Source: Helicobacteraceae bacterium (GTDB lineage: Bacteria > Campylobacterota > Campylobacteria > Campylobacterales > SZUA-545). From it: 54,519 nucleotides of DNA. Each line of letters opens with the position of its first letter. Positions within the stretch are counted from its first letter, which is position 1. Shown in pieces: positions 2,308-52,325 of this stretch. The DNA lies in the NCBI GenBank assembly GCA_031260125.1, contig JAIRKM010000016.1, positions 1-54,519 of the forward strand, written 5' to 3'. The notes beneath the pieces were generated by a model. It did not search any database and was not told the DNA's origin. It saw nothing but the letters and a program-made list of their open reading frames with translations. Made by a program: the position numbers and the translations under genes.

Positions 2308-3101
2308 TGTTCAGACCCTATACCCCAAAAGATAACGTACAAAAACGCTCCTATCATACCGATCGCTTCTACGTGCCTAAGGAGATAGAAAAAACGCAGA
2401 TCGAGGATACGATCGTAAGCGCCGATGTGGAGGCGCTCGGCGGACGGCTTTCGATCGTTGAAAGCTACTTTATGCGCAACGAAGCGGTGGTGATCGTCAA
2501 AGCCGCCGACAACAAGAGGGCGCTATCGTTCTTAAAGTCGATCGGCTATACGGAGCTTATGGAGATGAGCGCGATCGATCTTCTTGCCGTGCGGGGAGAG
2601 TTTGAGATATTTTACGAGCTTCTTAGTATCTCCAAAAATCGGCGCCTACGCCTCAAAACGGCGATCAAAGATGGAGAGTGTATAGAGAGCGTCGCCGATC
2701 TGTGGCGATCTGCCAATTGGTCAGAGCGCGAGTGCTACGATATGTTTGGGATCATCTTCAACAACCACCCGCACCTGAAGCGTATTTTGATGCCGGACGA
2801 CTGGGTGGGCTTTCCGCTACGCAAAACCTACCCTTTGCAGGGCGACGAGTTTGCCCGTTGGTATGAGGTGGATAAGATTTACGGTCGGGAGAACAGGCAC
2901 ATTGTCGGCGAGGAGAACCGCGACGCCGGCAGGATCGATCGAGACGATACGAAAAATTACGGGCGGCTTGGGTACGAGGTGCCATCTGGTTTCCCGCCGA
3001 GCGACGAGCCTACGCCTATTGTCTATCTTGAGCGCCGCCGCCCCATTCTGCACAGCGACTTCGATCCGCGCAAGCAAAAAGTGCTGGATAAGAGAAAGTA
3101 A
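2307..3101 (+). CDS. nuoC: NADH-quinone oxidoreductase subunit C
   Basis: NuoC is the 30-kDa-type hydrophilic subunit of the connecting module. The 264-residue protein has the signature [12 protein letters not shown] followed by H-P[11 protein letters not shown] and [10 protein letters not shown]. The N-terminal 30 residues and a C-terminal extension after about residue 175 are not part of the core fold; the tail is rich in charged residues ([17 protein letters not shown]). NuoC and NuoD are separate genes here, unlike the fused form of Escherichia coli. Five bases separate it from nuoD. Confidence 0.96.
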
Positions 3102-3106
3102 CGGCT

Positions 3107-4336
3107 ATGACACAGACGCCCAACAGACTTAGACCCTTTTATGACAACATATCCTTTGAGCGCGATAGCAACCGAATGATCTTAAACTTCGGTCCTCAGC
3201 ACCCCAGCGCACACGGTCAGATGAATCTGATCTTGGAGCTAGAGGGCGAGATGGTGGTTAAATCCAGCCCAAACATAGGCTTTCTTCACCGCGGCGTGGA
3301 GAAGATGGCGGAGAATATGATCTACAACGAATTCCTGCCTACAACCGATCGCATGGATTACATCAACGCCACCAGCAACAACTACGGCTTCGCTTTGGCG
3401 GTGGAAACGCTGCTTGGGATCGCCGCGCCGCGCCGCGCTCAGGCGATCCGCCTTGTCCTTTTGGAGTTGAGCCGTATAGCAAGCCACCTCTTTTTTCTTT
3501 CCACCCACGCGCTTGATGTTGGGGCGATGAGCATGATGCTCTATCCATTTCGCGAAAGAGAGTTCGCGCTTGATCTATTTGAGGAGTATTGCGGCGCTCG
3601 AATGACGCATAACTCCATGAGAATAGGCGGCGTTCCGCTGGATTTCACGCCGGAGTGGATCAGGCAGTGCGAGGCGTTTTTGGATCATATGCCCAAACAG
3701 ATTGAAATGTACGACGCGCTTTTGAAGGAGAACCGCATCTGGCGCATGCGGCTGGAAAATGTCGGAGTGATCTCTGCTGAGCTTGCGCAAAGCTGGGGAT
3801 TAAGCGGCGTGATGCTGCGCGGAAGCGGCTTTGAATGGGACTTGCGCAAGGAGCAGCCCTATGAGCTTTACGGCGAGGTTGATTTTGACGTGCCGGTAAC
3901 TGATACCTGCGATTGCTACGGCAGATACCGCCTCTACATAGAGGAAATATGGCAGTCGATCAAGCTCGTGCGGCAGGGGCTTAAAATCTACGCGGACACG
4001 CCGCCGGAACTGATGGCGGACGAACCGGAGTATATCAGCGCGTCCAAAGAGCAGTTGATGACGCAGAACTACTCATTGATGCAGCATTTCGTTCTGGTAA
4101 CGCAGGGGATGCGCCCACCGAAAGGGGAGGTCTATGTCGCCACAGAATCGCCTAAGGGGGAACTGGGATTTTTTATCTCATCGCTGGGCGATCCGTATCC
4201 AAACAGGGTGAAGGTGAGAGGCTCAAGTTTCTTTCACTGCGGAATTTTGGAGGATATGCTCATCGGATCGCAGCTTGCGGATGTTGTGGCGATTGTGGGC
4301 AACACCAACGTCATCTTCGGCGAAATCGATCGGTAG
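3107..4336 (+). CDS. nuoD: NADH-quinone oxidoreductase subunit D
   Basis: NuoD is the 49-kDa-type subunit that forms the quinone-binding cavity with NuoB. The 409-residue protein shows the motif [11 protein letters not shown] near residue 30, with the quinone-site His pair, then [12 protein letters not shown], and ends GEIDR as is typical. Length matches the family. There is nothing unusual in the residues seen. It is followed after ten bases by a small gene in the NuoE position rather than by true nuoE. Confidence 0.97.
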
Positions 4337-4346
4337 GGAGAGCGCA

Positions 4347-4580
4347 ATGAAACGTTACGATTTAAGAGAGCTGAAAAACGACTTCTTGGAGCGAATGATA
4401 GAACTGATAAACAGCGGCGTTGAGGCTGGCGAAAGCGCCGTTTTTATATTTGAGATCGGTGATTTTTTATCTGTCCAGCGGAGCGCGGAGGCGATCAAAG
4501 AGAGCGGTTTTGAGCTGCTTAACTCGCTTAAATACAACGAGGTCGATTGGATACACGTCGTAAGGAAAACCGGCGAATGA
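4347..4580 (+). CDS. small NuoE-position protein of Campylobacterota complex I
   Basis: This 77-residue acidic, soluble protein (MKRYDLRELKNDF...VDWIHVVRK) sits where nuoE would be. It has no cysteines, so it cannot hold the NuoE [2Fe-2S] cluster and is not NuoE in function. Campylobacter and Helicobacter have similar small proteins at the same place (Cj1575/HP1264 type). The ATG at 4347 is preceded by GGGAGAG; the open frame extends upstream into nuoD but that part is out of context. Its stop overlaps the next start by four bases (ATGA), implying translational coupling with the flavoprotein. A structural or adaptor role is likely; none is proven. Confidence 0.8.
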   Translation: MKRYDLRELKNDFLERMIELINSGVEAGESAVFIFEIGDFLSVQRSAEAIKESGFELLNSLKYNEVDWIHVVRKTGE

Positions 4581-6565
4581 GCGCTCCCTGGTTTAGCACG
4601 TGGCGCGGCGAGGTGCTGGATAACCGCGATCGCGCCGACAGCGATTATGTAAAGTGCGATCTCAAAATGCCGCAGACGTTCGATCTCAATCAGGCGGTAC
4701 GGGCGTTTATTGGCTGGGGCGGCGTTTCGATCTTTGATGGCTCGATTGACGTGCTGACGCTTGCGCTGGATTACGTTTTTCAGTATCAAAACTACGCGGA
4801 GGCGTGCGGGCGCTGTGCGCCTGGCAGAGCGGGCGGGCGGATATTGTTTGACATTCTCGACAAGATAGCAAGAGGCGAAGGCGAAAAGGAGGACATAGCG
4901 CGGCTCAAGGCAATCTCAGGCGTTATGCGATCCGCCTCTAAGTGCGAGATCGGACGTACGACGCCAAACGCCGTTTTACATCTGCTTGAGTATTTTCCAG
5001 AGAGTTTTGATAGTTGCATATCGGGACGACAGCAGAGCAGGGACTACGCGAAAAACCGGAAAAACCGCGCGCGAATTACCGCGCCGTGTATAGACGCCTG
5101 CCCCGATCGTGTCGATATTCCCGCTTATGTAGAGGCTATCAAGGATCGTCGTCCGATCGAAAGTTTGCGGGCGGTGCGCAGGACGATGCCGCTTGCGCAC
5201 GTCTGCTCGCGTGTCTGCCCGCACCCGTGCGAGGCGGTTTGCCGCAGGAAGGATATAGACGAGCCGCTGAACATTATGGAGTTAAAGCGCGTGGGCGCCG
5301 ATTATGAGTTCAGACATCGTATGGAGTTTACACAGCCGTTTGAGAAAAAAGAGACGGCGGGCAAAAGAGTCGCCGTTATCGGCGCGGGTCCGGCCGGATT
5401 GACGGCGGGCTATTTTCTGTCCGTAAACGGGGTGGAGTGCGATATATTTGAAAGCCTGCCCGTCGCCGGCGGGGAGGTGATGGTAGGCGTGCCTGAGTAC
5501 CGTATGCCGTACAGACAATACCTCGCCGACATCGAATTCGCCAAATCGTGCGGCGCGAAGATTCACCTAAACAGCGTGATCGACAAAGATAAGATGAGGG
5601 AGATCGAAAGAAGCTACGACGCTATCTTGCTTGCTACGGGCGCTAGACTCTCCAAAAAGATACGGTGCGAAAACGAAGACGAAGGGCTAAACGGGTACTG
5701 GGGGGCGATCGACTTTCTCGATCGGGTGAATCTCTGGGAGAAGTTTGGCATTGGCGAAAAGGTTGATCTCTCCGGCAAAACTGTCGTCTGTGTGGGGGGT
5801 GGATTTACCTCTATGGACGTGGTGCGCTGCGCGATCAGGGCGAACGCAAAACGGGCTATTATGCTCTACCGCCGCGACGAACAGACGATCGTGGGCAACA
5901 CTTCACTAGAGGAGTATAAGGAAGCGGTTGAAGAGGGGGTGGAGTTTATCTTTCACTCGGCGATCAGCCGCATTGAGGACGAAGAGGGGACGATCAAAAG
6001 GCTTCTATGCAGCCGTTACGAGCTTAGGAAAGAAGCCGATGCTAGAGCGCAGCTTTTCAAGGTAGAAGGCGCGGACTTTGAGATTGAGTGCGACTATCTC
6101 ATACCCGCCGTGAGCCAGTCGCCCGATCTCTCGTATATCCCCGAAGAGTGGGAGATTGCCATGACAAGCTGGGGGACGATCAAGACCGATGGCAAGACCT
6201 ATGCCACCACCAAAAAAGGGGTATTTTCGGCGGGCGACTGCGAATACGGGCCGATGACGATCGTCAATGCCGTAGGGCAGGCGCGCCGCGCCGCGAGCGT
6301 GATTGCGCGTTTCCTGCGAACGGGCGAGATCGTACGGGATAACGATGAGATTATGGACGAGCTGCTGCGTACCTTCCGCGTCTATCACAAGGGGGAGGTA
6401 GAGGGGTTTTTGGGCGGTATTAAACGGCTAGAATCGGCAAAGCTGCCCGTTGACGAGCGCAGAAGCGGCAATAGAGAGATAAGCCGCGGTCTTATGGCGC
6501 AAGAGGCGTTTGACGAAAGCGAACGGTGTATGCGCTGTTATTACATAGCGATGGTGGCATTATGA
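4577..6565 (+). CDS. GltD-type flavoprotein fused to a NuoF-like Fe-S segment
   Basis: This 662-residue protein occupies the nuoF place. Residues about 60-145 resemble the C-terminal cluster domain of NuoF, with C77-x2-C80 and C123, but the third Cys of the usual CxxCxxC is Gly83. Residues about 165-235 match the N-terminal cluster domain of glutamate synthase small subunit (GltD), with C171, C175, C210, C214, C218 and C222. An FAD-binding fold follows (GAGPAG at 269-274), then an NAD(P)-binding fold (CVGGGFTSMD) and the closing FAD motif (GVFSAGDC). The NuoF FMN domain is absent. It probably passes electrons between NAD(P)H or another donor and NuoG; the donor cannot be read from sequence. 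The C-terminus ends CMRCYYIAMVAL. It overlaps its neighbours by four bases at both ends. Confidence 0.85.
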   Translation: MSAPWFSTWRGEVLDNRDRADSDYVKCDLKMPQTFDLNQAVRAFIGWGGVSIFDGSIDVLTLALDYVFQYQNYAEACGRCAPGRAGGRILFDILDKIARGEGEKEDIARLKAISGVMRSASKCEIGRTTPNAVLHLLEYFPESFDSCISGRQQSRDYAKNRKNRARITAPCIDACPDRVDIPAYVEAIKDRRPIESLRAVRRTMPLAHVCSRVCPHPCEAVCRRKDIDEPLNIMELKRVGADYEFRHRMEFTQPFEKKETAGKRVAVIGAGPAGLTAGYFLSVNGVECDIFESLPVAGGEVMVGVPEYRMPYRQYLADIEFAKSCGAKIHLNSVIDKDKMREIERSYDAILLATGARLSKKIRCENEDEGLNGYWGAIDFLDRVNLWEKFGIGEKVDLSGKTVVCVGGGFTSMDVVRCAIRANAKRAIMLYRRDEQTIVGNTSLEEYKEAVEEGVEFIFHSAISRIEDEEGTIKRLLCSRYELRKEADARAQLFKVEGADFEIECDYLIPAVSQSPDLSYIPEEWEIAMTSWGTIKTDGKTYATTKKGVFSAGDCEYGPMTIVNAVGQARRAASVIARFLRTGEIVRDNDEIMDELLRTFRVYHKGEVEGFLGGIKRLESAKLPVDERRSGNREISRGLMAQEAFDESERCMRCYYIAMVAL

Positions 6566-8595
6566 TAACGCTGACGGTGAACCGCAGGACGATCAGGGCG
6601 CGCAAAGGAGCGACCATACTAGAAGCGGCGCGGGCAAACGGCGTGTATATTCCCGCGCTGTGCTATCTCCCACAGGCGAGCGCAAGCGGTTCGTGTGGGC
6701 TTTGCCTCGTCAAAACAGACCGATCCAGCGGTTTTGTCCGCGCCTGCCAGACAAAGGCGATCGACGGCTTGATCGTAGAGACCGATTCGCAGGAGCTGCG
6801 CGAGATACGAGGCGAAGTGATCAAGATGCTTTGCGTCAACCACCCGCTTCAGTGCGGCGTGTGCGACAAATCGGGCGAGTGCGAATTGCAGAATAAGGCG
6901 CTGGAGTTCGGTTTGCGCGAACAGCGGTTTTTCGCCAGAGAGCCTAAGCGGACGGTCGAGGAGTGGGCGGAGTTATCCTACGATCCCGCGCTGTGCATCA
7001 TGTGCGAACGGTGCGTCCGGACGTGCAACGAAGTGGTTGGGTTAAACGCGCTGTCAATTGCGGCAGGCGGATACAGATCCAAAGTTGTATTCGATGAAGA
7101 TCGGTGCCGCGACTGCGGCGAGTGCGCGGCGGTCTGTCCCGTCGGCGCGATCGTTACGAAGGATTTCAAATACCGCGCCAACACTTGGGAGCTAACTAAA
7201 ACGCCTTCAACGTGCGTGATGTGCCCATGCGGCTGCGATCTCTTCTATGAAACCAAGCGCGATCGGCTTATGCGCGTTACAAACGACGTGGAGAAGAACG
7301 CGCTGTGCGCGCTTGGGCGCCGCGCCGTCTTTGAGTTAAACGGCGCTCCTTCCATCAAGGCGCTGCGCGGGATCGTCGAGATCGACGCCAACAGCAGCAA
7401 CGAAGAGGCGTATCTGCTCACCCTGTTGTCGGAAAAACTTGGCTTTACGATCGCCAACGACGACGTACGGGCGTTTCAGAGTTTTCTGCGCACATACGGC
7501 GCGGCGTGTGGCGAGCCGCTTTACAGCGCCGATATGGATACGGTGCGGACGAGCGGTACGATCCTGATCGTCTCCTCAAGCCTTATGACGCAAGCGCCCA
7601 TGCTTTACAGCGCGATCTACCGCGCTATGCAAAACGGCGCGGAGGCGATCACCATCTCTCCAATCGATCGCGCCGATTGGGTCAGTACGCAGAGGATTCG
7701 CTGCGAGGCCGGCGCGGAAGAGGGGGTGTTGGCGCTGATCTTGAGTCTTTTCGCCGATCGTGCGGGCGTTCACAAGTGGACTGACACGCTTGATTATGGA
7801 AATATCTACGCCGAATCGAACGTGAGCGAGGAGGAGATAGAGATGTTAAAGGATAAGATCACCCTCAAAACTACGCTGATCGTGGGTAGCGAGATATATT
7901 CCCACGCGCGAGCGGAGGCGATCGCCGCGATTGTTGGATTTTTGCGCAAGGCGGGCATGGAGACGCTGATGATCCCGCCGTCGGCTAACGCTTTGGGTAT
8001 CGCGTTGCTGTGCGATCTCGTTCCAGCGGGAGATGCCGCCGTAAAGCTGCCGTATATCCCCGCAATCTATCAGGAGGGAACGATTACGACGCTCAATAAG
8101 GAAGTCAAGCCGCTCCACGCCGCGCTGACCTATAGCGGCGAGACGCTCGGCTTGATCGCCAAAAAGCTCGGCGAGAAGATCAGATGGACGGTCGATTGCA
8201 CAGAGAAACTGCCGCCTCAAAGGGGATTTAAGCCGATCGCCTTCGATCGCATAGAAGCGTACGCGCTTAAAACGCGGCGGTGCGCTACGAGCCTCCACTC
8301 TCCGGAGCAAGTCTCGGAGATCGGAGAGTTTAACGGGACGGTGGTGCATTTTGTCAATCGCGGGCATAAAAAAGAGGGTTTTCTGCGCGGTTCGGCTCAA
8401 TTTGCAACCTTAGGCGGTATCAGCGACGGCGATCTAGTTACGGTAAGGACAAAGAAAAATACTTTCAACCGGCGCTTTATTGTGGATAAGAATTTAAAAG
8501 GCACGATCGCCGATCTGGAGGTTTTCGACCTGCCGGAGTACGCCCAAAACGGTTATGGGTTTGAATCGGTGAAGCTATCAAAAGCGGGAGATTAA
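6562..8595 (+). CDS. nuoG: NADH-quinone oxidoreductase subunit G, first copy
   Basis: NuoG carries the iron-sulphur chain of the input arm. The N-terminus has a ferredoxin-type [2Fe-2S] domain (C34, C45, C48, C62), then HPLQCGVCDKSGEC for a His/Cys-ligated cluster, two [4Fe-4S] motifs (CIMCERCVRTC and CRDCGECAAVCP) and a molybdopterin-type cluster motif (CVMCPCGCD with a later LCALG). The remaining part is the molybdopterin-oxidoreductase-like fold, which in NuoG has no cofactor. At 677 residues it is shorter than many NuoG. I start it at ATG 6562, which overlaps the flavoprotein stop by four bases. A second complete copy follows one base later. Confidence 0.93.
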   Translation: MITLTVNRRTIRARKGATILEAARANGVYIPALCYLPQASASGSCGLCLVKTDRSSGFVRACQTKAIDGLIVETDSQELREIRGEVIKMLCVNHPLQCGVCDKSGECELQNKALEFGLREQRFFAREPKRTVEEWAELSYDPALCIMCERCVRTCNEVVGLNALSIAAGGYRSKVVFDEDRCRDCGECAAVCPVGAIVTKDFKYRANTWELTKTPSTCVMCPCGCDLFYETKRDRLMRVTNDVEKNALCALGRRAVFELNGAPSIKALRGIVEIDANSSNEEAYLLTLLSEKLGFTIANDDVRAFQSFLRTYGAACGEPLYSADMDTVRTSGTILIVSSSLMTQAPMLYSAIYRAMQNGAEAITISPIDRADWVSTQRIRCEAGAEEGVLALILSLFADRAGVHKWTDTLDYGNIYAESNVSEEEIEMLKDKITLKTTLIVGSEIYSHARAEAIAAIVGFLRKAGMETLMIPPSANALGIALLCDLVPAGDAAVKLPYIPAIYQEGTITTLNKEVKPLHAALTYSGETLGLIAKKLGEKIRWTVDCTEKLPPQRGFKPIAFDRIEAYALKTRRCATSLHSPEQVSEIGEFNGTVVHFVNRGHKKEGFLRGSAQFATLGGISDGDLVTVRTKKNTFNRRFIVDKNLKGTIADLEVFDLPEYAQNGYGFESVKLSKAGD

Positions 8596-8596
8596 A

Positions 8597-10831
8597 ATGG
8601 CGGAGATTACACTGACAATCAACAATAGGCAGATAAAGGCGAACGAGGGCGAAACGATCCTTTCGATTGCCCGCGCCAATGGCATATATGTACCGGCAAT
8701 CTGCTGCCTGACGCGCTGCTCTCCCACGCTTGCCTGCCGTCTTTGTATGGTGGATGCCGATGGCAAGCGGGTCTATTCCTGCAACGCCAAGGCGAAAGAT
8801 GGAATGGCGATCGTTACGGACAGCGAGGAGATGAGCAGGGATCGCGCCGCGATTATGCGGGTTTATGCGATCAACCACCCACTTCAATGCGGTGTGTGCG
8901 ACAGATCGGGCGAGTGCGAATTGCAGGATAACACGCTTTTTCAAGAGGTGAGCGATCAGGATTATGCGATTAAAGACACCGAAAAAAAGGCGGTTACTTG
9001 GGGGCGCACACGCTACGATCCCGCGCTGTGCATCGTCTGTGAAAGGTGCGTTACGGTTTGCAAAGATAAGATCGGAGCGGCGGCGCTTGCCGCGTTGCCG
9101 CGTGGATCGGAGGCGATTGCGGAGTGTTATAAGGAGTCTATGCCCAAAGACGCTTACGCGGTGTGGAACAAGCTGAACAAATCGCTGATCGCCCAATCGC
9201 CCAAGTACGACAACTGCGTCGATTGCGGCGAGTGCGCGGCGGTTTGCCCAACGGGGGCGATGATAACTGCCGATTTTCAATACCGCTCCAATGCGTGGGA
9301 ACTGAGGCGCGTCGCCTCAAGCTGCGTTCACTGCCCCAGCGCGTGCCATATATTTTACGAGGTTAAGCAAGGCGGCATAGACGATCCAAGCGATACGATC
9401 TACCGCGTTACCAACGACTTTCATTTTGAAAGCCTCTGCTCGGCGGGACGCTTCGCGTTTAATTACTCAAACGGCGCCAAGAGGGACAGCGGGGCGTTTA
9501 AGAGGGCGATCGAGGCGCTTAAAAAGGCGGGAACGATCCGCTTTTCATCGCTTATCACCAACGAGGAGGTTCTGATCCTCAACAGGCTCAAGGCGCTGCT
9601 TGGCGTAAATCTTGTCAATAAAGACGCGTTCGCCTATAGGCGTTTTTTGCGGTTTTTTACTTTGTCGTCGGGACGATCGCTTTACAGCGGCAGCAAGCGC
9701 GATCTGGGCGATTTCATCATTTCGATCGGATGCAGGCTTGGTAGCGACAATCCCGCGCTGCGATCGGCGGTGGTCAATGCCGTTATGGTCAAAAAGGCGG
9801 CGGCGATCGACTTTCACCCCGTGGGAGACAAGCTGCTCGATTCGCTTCACAAGAACTTTTTGCCTATGCGCGCCGCGCCGCTGGGCGAGGAGGAGATACT
9901 TTTCAAGATACTAAACCGCTTTGCCGACGGAGAGAAAATTCACGATTTCGGCGGCGATGGGATCGTATTCAGCGGCGAGGAGCTGGAGGCAATCGACAAG
10001 CTGGCGGAGGGTAAAGAGCGATGCACGCTGATCGCGGGAAGCGATCTGATCTTTCACCCGCGGTGGAAGAGCATCGCCACGCTGCTTGGGGCGATCGAAC
10101 GCGCTACGGCTTTTCGCGTGATCATCTCTCCTAGCTTTGTAAATTCTTTAGGCGTGGCGCTACTGGCCGATCTTGACGAAAACGCCGAAGGCTTTACGGT
10201 CGGCTACAACGCGGAAGGGGATTTTACGTTGAGCGCGCTCGGCGGCGGAGACCTTGACATGCCGTCGCTCAACCAGCAGGAGGGAACGGTTGTGAATATC
10301 GATCGGCGCGTTCTGCCCATCGCGCCTGCCTTGCCGTATAACGGCTATACGCTTGCCGATCTGGCAAACGAGTTTGGATGCGAGATCGAAAAAACGGTAG
10401 ACCTAACCGCCGAATTGCCAAAAGGCGTCGCATACGACGATCTGAAAAATGGCTTTGGTATGGACGGAGATGAGCTTAGGGGATACGCGCTGGACATAGA
10501 GAAGGTAGCGATCAAAAACACGTCGGCGTCCATCTCCAACTTGCCGCCGCTTACGGGAAGCGTGCTTTACCGCGCCAATCCTAACGGCGCTTTTAACTCC
10601 TTTGGCGCGAAGGCTTTGAACGTTCAGCCGGCGCTGTACGCAAGCGCGGAGTTTATAAGCGCCAACGCGCTGGAGGAGGGTAAAACCGCCACGATCGACG
10701 GGGAGGACATTAAGACGGCGCTACCGGTTGTGCTTGAGAGATCTATCGGCGGTAGCTTCGCCTTCCTTCCGGATTTTGATGGCAGCGCCGATGGATACCG
10801 CTTTATTTCAGTGAAAGTTGCAAAGGGATAA
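8597..10831 (+). CDS. nuoG: NADH-quinone oxidoreductase subunit G, second copy
   Basis: This 744-residue protein repeats the domain order of the preceding gene: [2Fe-2S] domain (cysteines near 35, 47, 50 and 64), HPLQCGVCDRSGEC, CIVCERCVTVC, CVDCGECAAVCP and a CVHCPSACH cluster motif. It differs by an insertion of about 30 residues between the two [4Fe-4S] motifs and by a diverged C-terminal half, so it is an old duplication rather than a recent repeat. Every cluster motif is intact, so both copies could be redox active. Whether both enter one complex or define alternative complexes cannot be told. It starts two bases after the first copy ends. Confidence 0.92.
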   Translation: MAEITLTINNRQIKANEGETILSIARANGIYVPAICCLTRCSPTLACRLCMVDADGKRVYSCNAKAKDGMAIVTDSEEMSRDRAAIMRVYAINHPLQCGVCDRSGECELQDNTLFQEVSDQDYAIKDTEKKAVTWGRTRYDPALCIVCERCVTVCKDKIGAAALAALPRGSEAIAECYKESMPKDAYAVWNKLNKSLIAQSPKYDNCVDCGECAAVCPTGAMITADFQYRSNAWELRRVASSCVHCPSACHIFYEVKQGGIDDPSDTIYRVTNDFHFESLCSAGRFAFNYSNGAKRDSGAFKRAIEALKKAGTIRFSSLITNEEVLILNRLKALLGVNLVNKDAFAYRRFLRFFTLSSGRSLYSGSKRDLGDFIISIGCRLGSDNPALRSAVVNAVMVKKAAAIDFHPVGDKLLDSLHKNFLPMRAAPLGEEEILFKILNRFADGEKIHDFGGDGIVFSGEELEAIDKLAEGKERCTLIAGSDLIFHPRWKSIATLLGAIERATAFRVIISPSFVNSLGVALLADLDENAEGFTVGYNAEGDFTLSALGGGDLDMPSLNQQEGTVVNIDRRVLPIAPALPYNGYTLADLANEFGCEIEKTVDLTAELPKGVAYDDLKNGFGMDGDELRGYALDIEKVAIKNTSASISNLPPLTGSVLYRANPNGAFNSFGAKALNVQPALYASAEFISANALEEGKTATIDGEDIKTALPVVLERSIGGSFAFLPDFDGSADGYRFISVKVAKG

Positions 10832-49518: not shown

Positions 49519-49588
49519 TAGCGTCTATATGTCCTTTTGCGCGAACTTCACGAGCTTGCTCACTACTCATAGCGCGTCTTTTTGCCAC
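49499..49588 (-). pseudogene. possible 5' remnant of a restriction endonuclease gene
   Basis: After the methyltransferase stop a frame opens at GTG 49588 (one-base overlap, TAGTG) and runs 29 codons, with an internal ATG at 49570. It reads MAKRRAMSSEQAREVRAKGH then IDANAKRHS. The pattern of a short Lys/Arg start and KGHIDA is one I associate with the N-terminus of type II restriction enzymes. The frame reaches the dedA start region and stops soon after. An intact enzyme would be about ten times longer. The identity is an inference from position and a short motif. Confidence 0.35.
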
Positions 49589-50583
49589 TATCTTCTCTCC
49601 CCTATAATCAACAGCTCGTGACTTGTTTTTATATTGTCATCGTCGCCGCGTTCAATACGGTTTTTACCTATTCTTATTTCTCCTTGTCCCATAGTGTATT
49701 GCCAGCTTGGTTCTAGGATTTTGTATTCCTTATACGTGTCTCTAACAAATGCGCAATCGTTGTAGGAGAGGATAAATCCACCTTTGTGCGATCTCAGCGC
49801 CTCGCTAAGCGCTATATGGTCAAATCCGTTATGATGAATTGGAAAGTTGCGTTGAGGATATACGCCTCTAAACATCTTAGAGTCGCCGCCTAAATAGTAT
49901 GGAGGATCAAGATACAAGAAATCATCTCTGTGATTTGGAAGAATAGTTTCAAAACTTGCGCATTCGACGCTTACGTTATTTACGTTAAGCGATCGCAGCT
50001 TATTTAGCATCGCCGTATAGCGATCCGCGTCCTGATATATTTTGCTCATCCAGCCCAAAAAGCCGGGTCCATATGAAAGGTTGAAATTAAAATAGTAATC
50101 TCGCGCTAAAGTTAAAGGTTCCAGCGCCGTCTCTTTTTCCCAATGCCTTGTCAGCTCTTTTTTAACAGCGTTATAGTTTTCCCGCGTGGGTTCAAGCGCC
50201 GACAGCGCTTCATATAGCGCGGTGTTATTGCAAAGTGCCTGCCTCCAAAAATTAACCAAAATATCAAAAATATCGTAACCGATCACGGGGATATTTAATT
50301 CTTTGGCAATTGCGATCTCCACGCTTCCGCCGCCAAAGAAAGGCGACACAACCTGCTTAACATCGTTTGGCAATTGCTCTACGATCAGCCCAACCGCCAA
50401 ACTTTTTCCGCCTGGGTATCTTAGTGGCGATTTGCAGTAACGCTTATAACGATTATTAGAGCCTCTCAAACTATATAAAAATAATTCTTTCGCAACCGCC
50501 GCCGAGTTTTCTTTGGCGGCGTAGTTAAATAGAGAATCGCTTCGCAATTTTGCGCGGCTGGCGGTAGAAAACCCGAGCGTCAC
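49588..50583 (-). CDS. D12-class DNA adenine N6-methyltransferase
   Basis: The 331-residue protein has KSPLRYPGGKS (51-61), the S-adenosylmethionine motif PFFGGGS (81-87), and the catalytic DPPYY (226-230), in the order of the Dam/DpnM class that often methylates GATC. The first about 40 residues have no counterpart in the family, so the true start may be later; the GTG at 50583 overlaps the AAA stop by four bases but lacks a clear ribosome binding site. An in-frame TTG codes for residue 39, just before the conserved part. The neighbourhood has lower GATC density than the rest of the window. Confidence 0.85.
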   Translation of the reverse strand: MTLGFSTASRAKLRSDSLFNYAAKENSAAVAKELFLYSLRGSNNRYKRYCKSPLRYPGGKSLAVGLIVEQLPNDVKQVVSPFFGGGSVEIAIAKELNIPVIGYDIFDILVNFWRQALCNNTALYEALSALEPTRENYNAVKKELTRHWEKETALEPLTLARDYYFNFNLSYGPGFLGWMSKIYQDADRYTAMLNKLRSLNVNNVSVECASFETILPNHRDDFLYLDPPYYLGGDSKMFRGVYPQRNFPIHHNGFDHIALSEALRSHKGGFILSYNDCAFVRDTYKEYKILEPSWQYTMGQGEIRIGKNRIERGDDDNIKTSHELLIIGERR

Positions 50584-52325
50584 GACAAAAATCCGAGCGT
50601 TTTTTCTTCGCCAAAAGCCCCGCTTAGCTCTTTTTTAATAACGCTTTCAAAAATCTCGTTGGTAAAAAGAGCCTCTTCTTGAACAGCCGCTATCATTGCG
50701 GCGTTTTTAATGGCAAGCGAAATCTGCGCGCCTGTAAGTTGATATTTGGCAAGCGTCTCTAAATTGAAACCTGTTTCAAAAGGGGCGTTTGTCGGCATAA
50801 GTTTTTTCCATATCTCAAGCCGTTGGCTTGCATTGGGCTTCTCGAATTTTATTTTATAGTCAAAGCGGCGTGAAAAGGCTGGATCGATGTTTTCCAATAG
50901 GTTTGTAGTGGCAATTAGTATGCCGTCAAACCGCTCTATCTGTTCAAGAAATATATTCTGCATCTGATTGTGCATCTTTTCTGCCCCGCCTGAAACTGCG
51001 ACGGTACGCGACGATAAAAACTGATCCGCCTCGTTAAGCAGCAAAATTGGCTCGGTTTTGGACTTTGCGACAATATCTTTATACGTGTCGAATATGCGCC
51101 GCGCGTTTTTTTCGCTCTCCCCCACATACATTGATAAAATTTTCGAGCAGTCAAAGCTGATCACCTGTTTTTTGAGCGTCTTCGCAATTGAAACAGCGGT
51201 TAATGTTTTGCCAGTACCCGGATGCCCATGGAACATTATCTTGGAGTCGGTGGAGCCTTTTTTATCCTTAATACCCCACTCTTTCAGGCGTTTTATAACT
51301 TGTGTATCCATTCGCTTCAAAAGAAGTTCAATAATCTCCCTTGTCTCTGAATTCAACACGACATCGTCAAGGGTCGTCCTAGGATCGATCAGCTCAAATA
51401 TCTCCTGCTCTTTTATCAGCGTGTCGAGTTTAATCCTCTGATTCTTCTTCTTTTTAGAATAAACGATTTCTTTAAGTACCTCTTCCGATATAAAAAAAGA
51501 ACGGCTCATGCTGCCAAACGGAGTCAATACTTCGTCATAACCGATTATCCCCTTTTCGATCAAAGGCGCATTTTCCTCCAGCAGGCTTCTATTTTTTATC
51601 TTTTCATAATCGTCAAAACTTACTATTTCAATCAGCGTATTCATATCGCGCAGATTCTCATCGGTGCCGGAATACTCCTCTTTTAGCAGCGCAAAGAATA
51701 TAACTCTCTCTTTTTCGTTCAAATGACGCTCTTTGAAATATCTCTCCAGCCGCGGCGACTCTTTTGAAACCGCGATCCTTTTCTTGATCTGCTTTTCCAA
51801 CATCATCAAGCGGTTCTTCACGCGAGTGAAGCTCTGTGTTGAAGGATCGTAGTTTTGACGTATTTGCGCAAGCTTTTGATAAAGATCGATGCGCAAAAAA
51901 TTATCTTGGAGATATTCAAGGTGATCGGCGTATGGTTTAACTTCCGGAAGGCGGATATCTAGGTTTCCGTCTTCGACCAGCTTTAGAAAAGTGATTGAAA
52001 GTGATATGGATTGGTGAAGTAAATCGAGCAGAATAATATCTGATGTTTTACCGTGATGCTGACCGTTTATAGTAACCCACCCGAGTTCAATAAGATTGCG
52101 CACTTCAACGATGTGTGTTACGTATCCTATGCGCTCCTTTTTATAGGCTTCTGCGAGAAGCGAAAAAACGGTTACTTCTGTCGTACCGGCGAGATAGTCC
52201 GACATTAGTATCTTCAAAAGTTCCGCTTCATTTACGGAGCATTTAAGTTGACTAAAAAGCGCAGTTTGCTCTACATATTTTTTTTGCAGAAACTCAATTA
52301 GTCCGTGCATATCTATCTTCTGCAC
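50580..52325 (-). CDS. AAA ATPase with helical N-terminal domain
   Basis: The 581-residue protein has an N-terminal, mostly helical region (1-320, including winged-helix-like parts) and a C-terminal AAA module: Walker A GHPGTGKT (367-374), Walker B ILLLNEAD with Asn in place of the first Asp (431), sensor ATTN and arginine fingers SRRFD, as in CDC48-like proteins. Related AAA proteins occur in Campylobacter (of the Cj0377 kind) without known role. The start lies in the overlap with the lipoprotein gene (13 bases) and the end overlaps the methyltransferase by four. The partner and substrate are unknown. Confidence 0.82.
   Translation of the reverse strand: MQKIDMHGLIEFLQKKYVEQTALFSQLKCSVNEAELLKILMSDYLAGTTEVTVFSLLAEAYKKERIGYVTHIVEVRNLIELGWVTINGQHHGKTSDIILLDLLHQSISLSITFLKLVEDGNLDIRLPEVKPYADHLEYLQDNFLRIDLYQKLAQIRQNYDPSTQSFTRVKNRLMMLEKQIKKRIAVSKESPRLERYFKERHLNEKERVIFFALLKEEYSGTDENLRDMNTLIEIVSFDDYEKIKNRSLLEENAPLIEKGIIGYDEVLTPFGSMSRSFFISEEVLKEIVYSKKKKNQRIKLDTLIKEQEIFELIDPRTTLDDVVLNSETREIIELLLKRMDTQVIKRLKEWGIKDKKGSTDSKIMFHGHPGTGKTLTAVSIAKTLKKQVISFDCSKILSMYVGESEKNARRIFDTYKDIVAKSKTEPILLLNEADQFLSSRTVAVSGGAEKMHNQMQNIFLEQIERFDGILIATTNLLENIDPAFSRRFDYKIKFEKPNASQRLEIWKKLMPTNAPFETGFNLETLAKYQLTGAQISLAIKNAAMIAAVQEEALFTNEIFESVIKKELSGAFGEEKTLGFLS

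Follow-up and report, generated by a model that had tools for sequence, protein, structure and literature searches.

Complex I of Campylobacterota is encoded with nuoX and nuoY in place of nuoE and nuoF, and in Campylobacter jejuni its electron donor is flavodoxin (PMC6682613, PMC4178425). The NuoX protein of Helicobacter pylori, HP1264, binds FMN in vitro (PMC6269979). The input end of this complex has long been unexplained, with nuoEF missing and NuoX and NuoY resembling nothing known. In StnC, a GltD domain binds NADPH and FAD, carries Lys170 at its proximal cluster and is non-bifurcating, whereas NfnB has a glutamate at that position (PMC10482914). Proteins with the layout seen in a Collinsella aerofaciens protein are termed SfrB-like, and pairs of SfrB-like proteins with hydrogenases have been described (PMC3543383, PMC9888536). 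Below, we discuss a nuo operon in which the gene for a protein of the SfrB-like type stands in the place of nuoE and nuoF.

The nuo operon and its fusion protein

The window, meaning the whole 54,519-nucleotide stretch analysed, comes from a Helicobacteraceae genome of 1.64 Mb (estimated 100% complete) and contains a complete nuo operon on the forward strand, with nuoA, B, C, D, G, H, I, J, K, L, M and N together (Table 1). The nuoA, B, C and G genes were identified by Pfam, and the remainder by order and sequence. As the first-pass annotation of this DNA had described, a 77-residue protein and a GltD-type 662-residue protein take the place of NuoE and NuoF. Two nuoG genes follow, here called nuoG1 and nuoG2, and then nuoH, I, J, K, L, M and N on the same strand. 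ATGA overlaps join nuoX to the fusion gene and the fusion gene to nuoG1, which suggests that the three are translationally coupled.

Table 1. Coordinates of the features discussed (window positions unless a locus is named).
Feature	Position	Strand	Remarks and basis
nuoA	starts 1427	+	order/sequence and Pfam
nuoB	starts 1777	+	order/sequence and Pfam
nuoC	starts 2307	+	order/sequence and Pfam
nuoD	3107-4336	+	directly before nuoX
nuoX	4347-4580	+	77 aa, Cys-free, HP1264/NuoX family; PF16514, 5.5e-32
Fusion gene	4577-6565	+	662 aa; Pfam, PDB profile matches (StnC/NfnB/GltD), Foldseek, 101 homologues
NuoF-like helical domain, residues 30-165	4664-5071	+	three-Cys N3 site; PF10589, HoxF/Collinsella alignment
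Third-Cys position of N3, Gly83	4823-4825	+
Two-[4Fe-4S] segment, residues 168-247	5078-5317	+	C171, C175, C210, C214, C218, C222, K237; Fer4_20
FAD and NAD(P) Rossmann domains, residues 264-581	5366-6319	+	R309, YRR 431-433; Pyr_redox_2
C-terminal C651xxC654 segment, residues 625-657	6449-6547	+	aligns with T. maritima NfnB 4ylf_B residues 10-42
nuoG1	6562-8595	+	677 aa, extra NuoG; Pfam, alignment
NuoG1 C-terminal Fdh-like domain, residues 325-677	7534-8592	+	homologous to stand-alone NuoY; hhalign, tree
nuoG2	8597-10831	+	744 aa; PRK08493 904 bits, alignment
DNA adenine methylase-like gene	49588-50583	-	by eye
AAA ATPase gene	50580-52325	-	581 aa; compared with L159:2362-4095 and L163:7556-9292
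Hox cluster and maturation protease	L151 (G000 C83) 2419-7649	-	named by sequence reading
Orphan NuoY genes	L152:5795-6505, L153:5365-6060, L154:5575-6345, L159:4107-4877, L160:4931-5605, L163:6773-7543, L166:6792-7466

The 77-residue protein contains no cysteine, as first noted, but it is not novel. It matches PF16514 (NADH-UOR_E) and the HP1264 structure (PDB 2LXR, 1e-20), and it has the sequence features of the NuoX family (PF16514, 74-77 residues, no cysteine), which is found in 332 of 397 Campylobacterota genomes.

A true nuoE and nuoF pair elsewhere in the genome, a possibility that the annotation had raised against its own reading, is ruled out, since the only PF01512 gene encodes HoxF. 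HoxF and HoxE are encoded beside HoxU, HoxY and HoxH, followed by a maturation protease, and the cluster reads as an NAD-reducing hydrogenase rather than a spare complex I module. The genome also encodes two flavodoxins and no PntB. ATP-citrate lyase (ACL) has no match in this genome or in two family members tested, and is present in four Sulfurimonas-like and other relatives, so that ACL-type autotrophy is improbable for this organism. A tie between the input module and ACL-type autotrophy is ruled out, because the module occurs in the window's genome where the lyase has no match.

The fusion protein joins a NuoF-like cluster segment to a GltD/NfnB-like unit, in agreement with the first-pass annotation: Pfam places NADH_4Fe-4S (PF10589) at residues 74-145 (3.3e-19), Fer4_20 at residues 168-247 (1.4e-18) and Pyr_redox_2 at residues 264-569 (2.3e-25). 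The Complex1_51K FMN/NADH domain (PF01512) is absent from the Pfam scan, again as stated. Its nearest solved relatives by profile and Foldseek fold are StnC, NfnABC, NfnB and GltD, and it has the combination of Fer4_20 with an FAD/NAD(P) Rossmann pair that characterizes NfnB and GltD. The predicted structure has a pLDDT below 50 in the cluster region.

The N3 motif of the fusion reads C77-x2-C80-x2-G83 followed by C123, giving the PF10589 domain three cysteines where NuoF has four. The position of Gly83, one of the usual NuoF ligands, is a cysteine in both the organism's own HoxF and the Collinsella SfrB-like protein (both CGKCxPC). Glycine occupies it in 101 of 101 homologues, which rules out a sequencing error or private mutation and marks Gly83 as a fixed feature of the fusion family. 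Also invariant in the 101 fusions are C77, C80, C123, C171, C175, C210, C214, C218, C222, K237, R309 and YRR, together with K122 and E124, which flank C123; C651 and C654 are kept in 100, and the remaining row has a gap there. Speculatively, E124 is a candidate substitute ligand for N3.

In NfnB and GltD, a CxxC at the start of the chain contributes to binding of the first [4Fe-4S] cluster, and this motif is missing from the fusion's N-terminus. Profile alignment matches NfnB 4ylf_B from residue 44 onward to the fusion from residue 169, while residues 10-42 of NfnB align with the C-terminal segment of the fusion; StnC-type and Thermococcus NfnA chains align via the same C-terminal CxxC. The alignments indicate that the first CxxC is relocated from the N- to the C-terminus, and both flavin-side clusters are predicted to be complete because C651xxC654 replaces the N-terminal pair. 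The earlier description of the GltD unit as complete thus holds, in that both clusters have ligands, but only by virtue of this C-terminal pair. By analogy with DPD-type clusters, we take the distal cluster to be bound by C171/C222/C651/C654 and the proximal cluster by C175/C214/C218 and K237.

Distribution, the two NuoGs and the ancestry of NuoY

The search of other Campylobacterota complex I operons that the first-pass annotation proposed finds the fusion across Campylobacterales in the same operon order. Most relatives in the other families of Campylobacterales have homologues that are 55-89% identical, and the gene order nuoC-D-X-fusion-nuoG-nuoG-H-I is found in every intact locus from named organisms (Sulfurimonas, Sulfurovum, Nitratifractor, Hydrogenimonas, and some Arcobacter and Helicobacter). 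The fusion is present in 34 of 160 evenly drawn genomes (completeness at least 90%), and the best 80 loci of a scan of genome collections are all from Campylobacterota. Judged by these comparisons, the arrangement is conserved among environmental Campylobacterota and not a peculiarity of the window's genome. Some Helicobacter (L156, L157, L146, L149, L061) have a fusion with a long NuoG1 and NuoG2, and in several of them a longer linker joins the NuoF-like domain to the GltD unit of the fusion (724-732 aa, up to 962 aa).

Operons without the fusion have the order nuoC-D-X-NuoY-nuoG-H-I, with a NuoY of 200-350 aa, and belong to families f9, f11, f14 and f20, which are Arcobacter-, Campylobacter-, Helicobacter- and Sulfurospirillum-like by gene content and literature. 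In the listed fusion genomes, the NuoY profile matches inside the NuoG1 frame (508-801 aa), whereas in the listed genomes without the fusion it matches a stand-alone frame (198-351 aa); two Helicobacter fusion genomes outside this listing (L156 and L157) have full NuoG1 genes. A tree of NuoD, NuoH and NuoI requires five switches between operon types, at least three of them forced, although this and the other trees are quick ones and place the window's sequences on long branches. Because of these switches, the fusion and the Fe-S half of NuoG1 appear to have been gained or lost together several times. This joint change in presence is the main evidence that the fusion and NuoG1 work as a unit.

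NuoG1 carries the ligands of N1b, N5, two ferredoxin-type clusters and N7. The N1b and N5 ligands are found in 71 of 72 NuoG1 and 80 of 80 NuoG2 sequences, and nuoG2 is retained in all NuoX-type operons examined. The first-pass annotation had spoken of NuoG without discussing a second copy; the operon has two nuoG genes, a point of consequence for the mechanism, and the likely partner is the extra NuoG1 rather than the ordinary NuoG. In a separate observation, NuoG2 has NPHSSD where the N7-type cysteine ligands (CxHCxxxC) would stand, a loss seen in 12 of 19 NuoXY operons and in 7 of 61 fusion-type NuoG2 (loci noted for it: L052-L057, L062, L063, L161, L162, L164 and L165).

Several comparisons connect NuoY with NuoG1. 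In hhalign, the NuoY profile pairs with the C-terminal half of NuoG1 at a probability of 100 (E 3.9e-59), and with NuoG2 far more weakly (E 2.5e-20). A NuoY model (mean pLDDT 88.6) matches formate dehydrogenase and NuoG Mo-pterin-type domains. When the tree is rooted on NuoG2, a single clade (SH-aLRT 99) holds NuoG1 and NuoY, and NuoY is nested within NuoG1; several inner branches are weak, and the strong branches alone force only one NuoY origin. In the quick tree, the NuoY of f9, of f20/f11 and of f14 each lie beside the NuoG1 of related lineages. From its homology, then, NuoY is the C-terminal domain of NuoG1, which gives it an origin as the cut-down remnant of a second NuoG. Because NuoY corresponds to this domain and nests inside NuoG1, the NuoXY pair of Campylobacter and Helicobacter is best read as what is left, in reduced form, of an input module linked to NAD(P)H.

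NuoY genes are also found as orphans, far from nuo operons, in genomes without NuoX. The Nautiliaceae-like (f15) orphans adjoin heme-synthesis genes, and the Arcobacter- and Campylobacter-like (f9/f11) genomes with orphans carry a canonical complex I with NuoCD and NuoF. These copies weaken the view of NuoY as a part of complex I only; since orphan NuoY outlives the NuoX-type complex, its domain has another role as well. The window itself encodes an AAA ATPase next to a gene that, by eye, is DNA adenine methylase-like. Compared by eye over its N-terminal sequence, this ATPase resembles the one encoded immediately upstream of orphan NuoY in Arcobacter-like genomes.

Candidate electron route and competing readings

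The sequences show the architecture, the invariant ligands, the co-occurrence and the homology between NuoY and NuoG1; from these we infer a substrate, an electron path, a physical assembly and a direction of flow. The fusion is probably the SfrB-like NAD(P)H subunit of a complex I input module, with NuoG1 next in line and a flavin that is likely non-bifurcating, and the NuoXY form derived from it by loss. A hydride from NAD(P)H would reduce the FAD of the GltD-type unit, and single electrons would then pass through the two [4Fe-4S] clusters, the K237-containing one near the FAD and the one completed by C651/C654 farther away, to the three-Cys N3. From N3, they would enter the Fe-S half of NuoG1 and continue through NuoG2 and NuoI to menaquinone. 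The architecture supports the steps up to N3, and co-occurrence those beyond it. Flow could alternatively run in the opposite direction, with quinol and the proton-motive force making NADPH. Electron transfer to NuoG1 may be slowed or blocked at the three-Cys N3, which is one cysteine ligand short. An electron entry route into NuoG different from the usual one, as originally proposed, is likely given the FMN-less GltD-type fusion in place of nuoE and nuoF.

On a change to flavodoxin or ferredoxin, a lineage would have shed the fusion along with the Fe-S half of NuoG1, keeping NuoX and the C-terminal stump of NuoG1 as NuoY in the HP1265/Cj1574c slot. More tentatively, and as a possibility that we would not yet bet on, the whole can be seen as an NADP(H)-reading complex I with an SfrB-type FAD subunit, a three-Cys N3, two NuoGs in series and a longer Fe-S wire, from which the flavodoxin-linked NuoXY enzymes of Campylobacter and Helicobacter arose several times by loss of the flavoprotein and reduction of NuoG1 to NuoY.

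The main competing reading, conceivable if rather unlikely, is that the fusion together with NuoG1 makes up a soluble enzyme of its own, an SfrAB-like NADPH:ferredoxin/flavodoxin oxidoreductase that shares only the operon with complex I, the latter being fed through NuoG2 by flavodoxin or ferredoxin as in C. jejuni. SfrB-like subunits do act outside complex I, as in Collinsella next to an [FeFe]-hydrogenase, NuoXY operons manage with NuoG2 alone, and the two flavodoxins could be cited for the same reading. However, every intact locus has the fusion and NuoG1 genes within its nuo operon, in the window they are joined by an ATGA overlap, and the C-terminal domain of NuoG1 stays in the nuo operon as NuoY after the fusion is lost.

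The substrate of the fusion is probably NADP(H), as suggested by the YRR motif and by its closest characterized relatives, NfnB, StnC and GltD, which use NADPH. Both points count against an NADH-specific fusion that would simply substitute for NuoEF in an ordinary NADH dehydrogenase, with FAD for FMN. We regard this version as improbable, although the same electron route would serve it and the organism has an NAD-reducing hydrogenase to make NADH.

The first-pass annotation had noted that GltD-like proteins in some cases bifurcate electrons, and the residue at the proximal cluster disfavours bifurcation as the default reading here. Lys237 aligns with the Lys170 position of StnC, is a lysine in 101 of 101 fusions and stands where NfnB has its glutamate ligand; as StnC with the same lysine is non-bifurcating at this flavin, switching from two-electron to one-electron transfer with NADPH is more likely than bifurcation. 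A bi- or confurcating FAD that couples NADPH and a second acceptor (ferredoxin or flavodoxin) to complex I could draw on the homology to NfnB and on the conserved R309, the equivalent of NfnB R201 and StnC R239, but we consider it very improbable, also because no NfnA-like subunit is encoded beside the fusion. Degeneration of the fusion and NuoG1 to purely structural roles, with the lost N3 cysteine at Gly83 as its first sign, is scarcely credible, because decay would not fix Gly83 and K122-C123-E124, which like the other ligands and motifs are invariant in 101 sequences.

Returning to the favoured reading of an SfrB-like input subunit, environmental Campylobacterota gain a defined candidate electron-input module. 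If the fusion belongs to the complex, complex I can swap its NADH module for an NADP(H) module, a point relevant to NADPH formation in vent and sediment Campylobacterota and to the way in which complex I acquired and swapped its input parts.

Relation to known systems

Within the openly licensed literature, we found neither an SfrB-like fusion as the complex I input of free-living members, nor its coupling to a second NuoG, nor NuoY as a NuoG1 remnant; earlier mention outside that literature is possible. The closest system, the NuoXY complex I of C. jejuni and H. pylori (HP1264/HP1265, Cj1575c/Cj1574c), shares with the window the operon, NuoX, NuoG2 and the lack of NuoE and NuoF. The position that NuoY alone holds there is taken in the window by the fusion, with its FAD/NAD(P) unit, and by a full-length NuoG1. 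NuoF and HoxF share the C-terminal N3-cluster domain (PF10589) with the fusion, which, unlike them, has neither the FMN/NADH domain nor SLBB.

StnC and NfnABC (Sporomusa ovata, Caldicellulosiruptor, Thermococcus) likewise have an NfnB/GltD-type NADPH unit feeding NuoG-like Fe-S domains, and share with the fusion the lysine at the proximal cluster and a CxxC downstream of the GltD domain. In StnC, however, GltD is fused to NuoG and paired with the bifurcating, NuoF/NuoE-like StnAB, whereas the window's GltD unit is joined to the NuoF cluster domain. The operon encodes neither the transhydrogenase subunit StnA nor the FMN-bearing StnB, and HoxE and HoxF belong to the hydrogenase cluster.

The C. 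aerofaciens SfrB-like protein (L150, 610 aa; P0003) has the same order of NADH_4Fe-4S, Fer4_20, Pyr_redox_2 and a C-terminal RCxxC, and the fusion likewise carries all four in one chain. The Collinsella protein ends in RCLRC, has a four-Cys CGKCTPC and neighbours an [FeFe]-hydrogenase, whereas the window's fusion has glycine for the third cysteine and lies in a complex I operon. Geobacter SfrAB belongs to this type too, but the likeness is drawn from the Collinsella protein; by it, the fusion is an SfrB-like module that has been set into complex I and differs in one cluster ligand.
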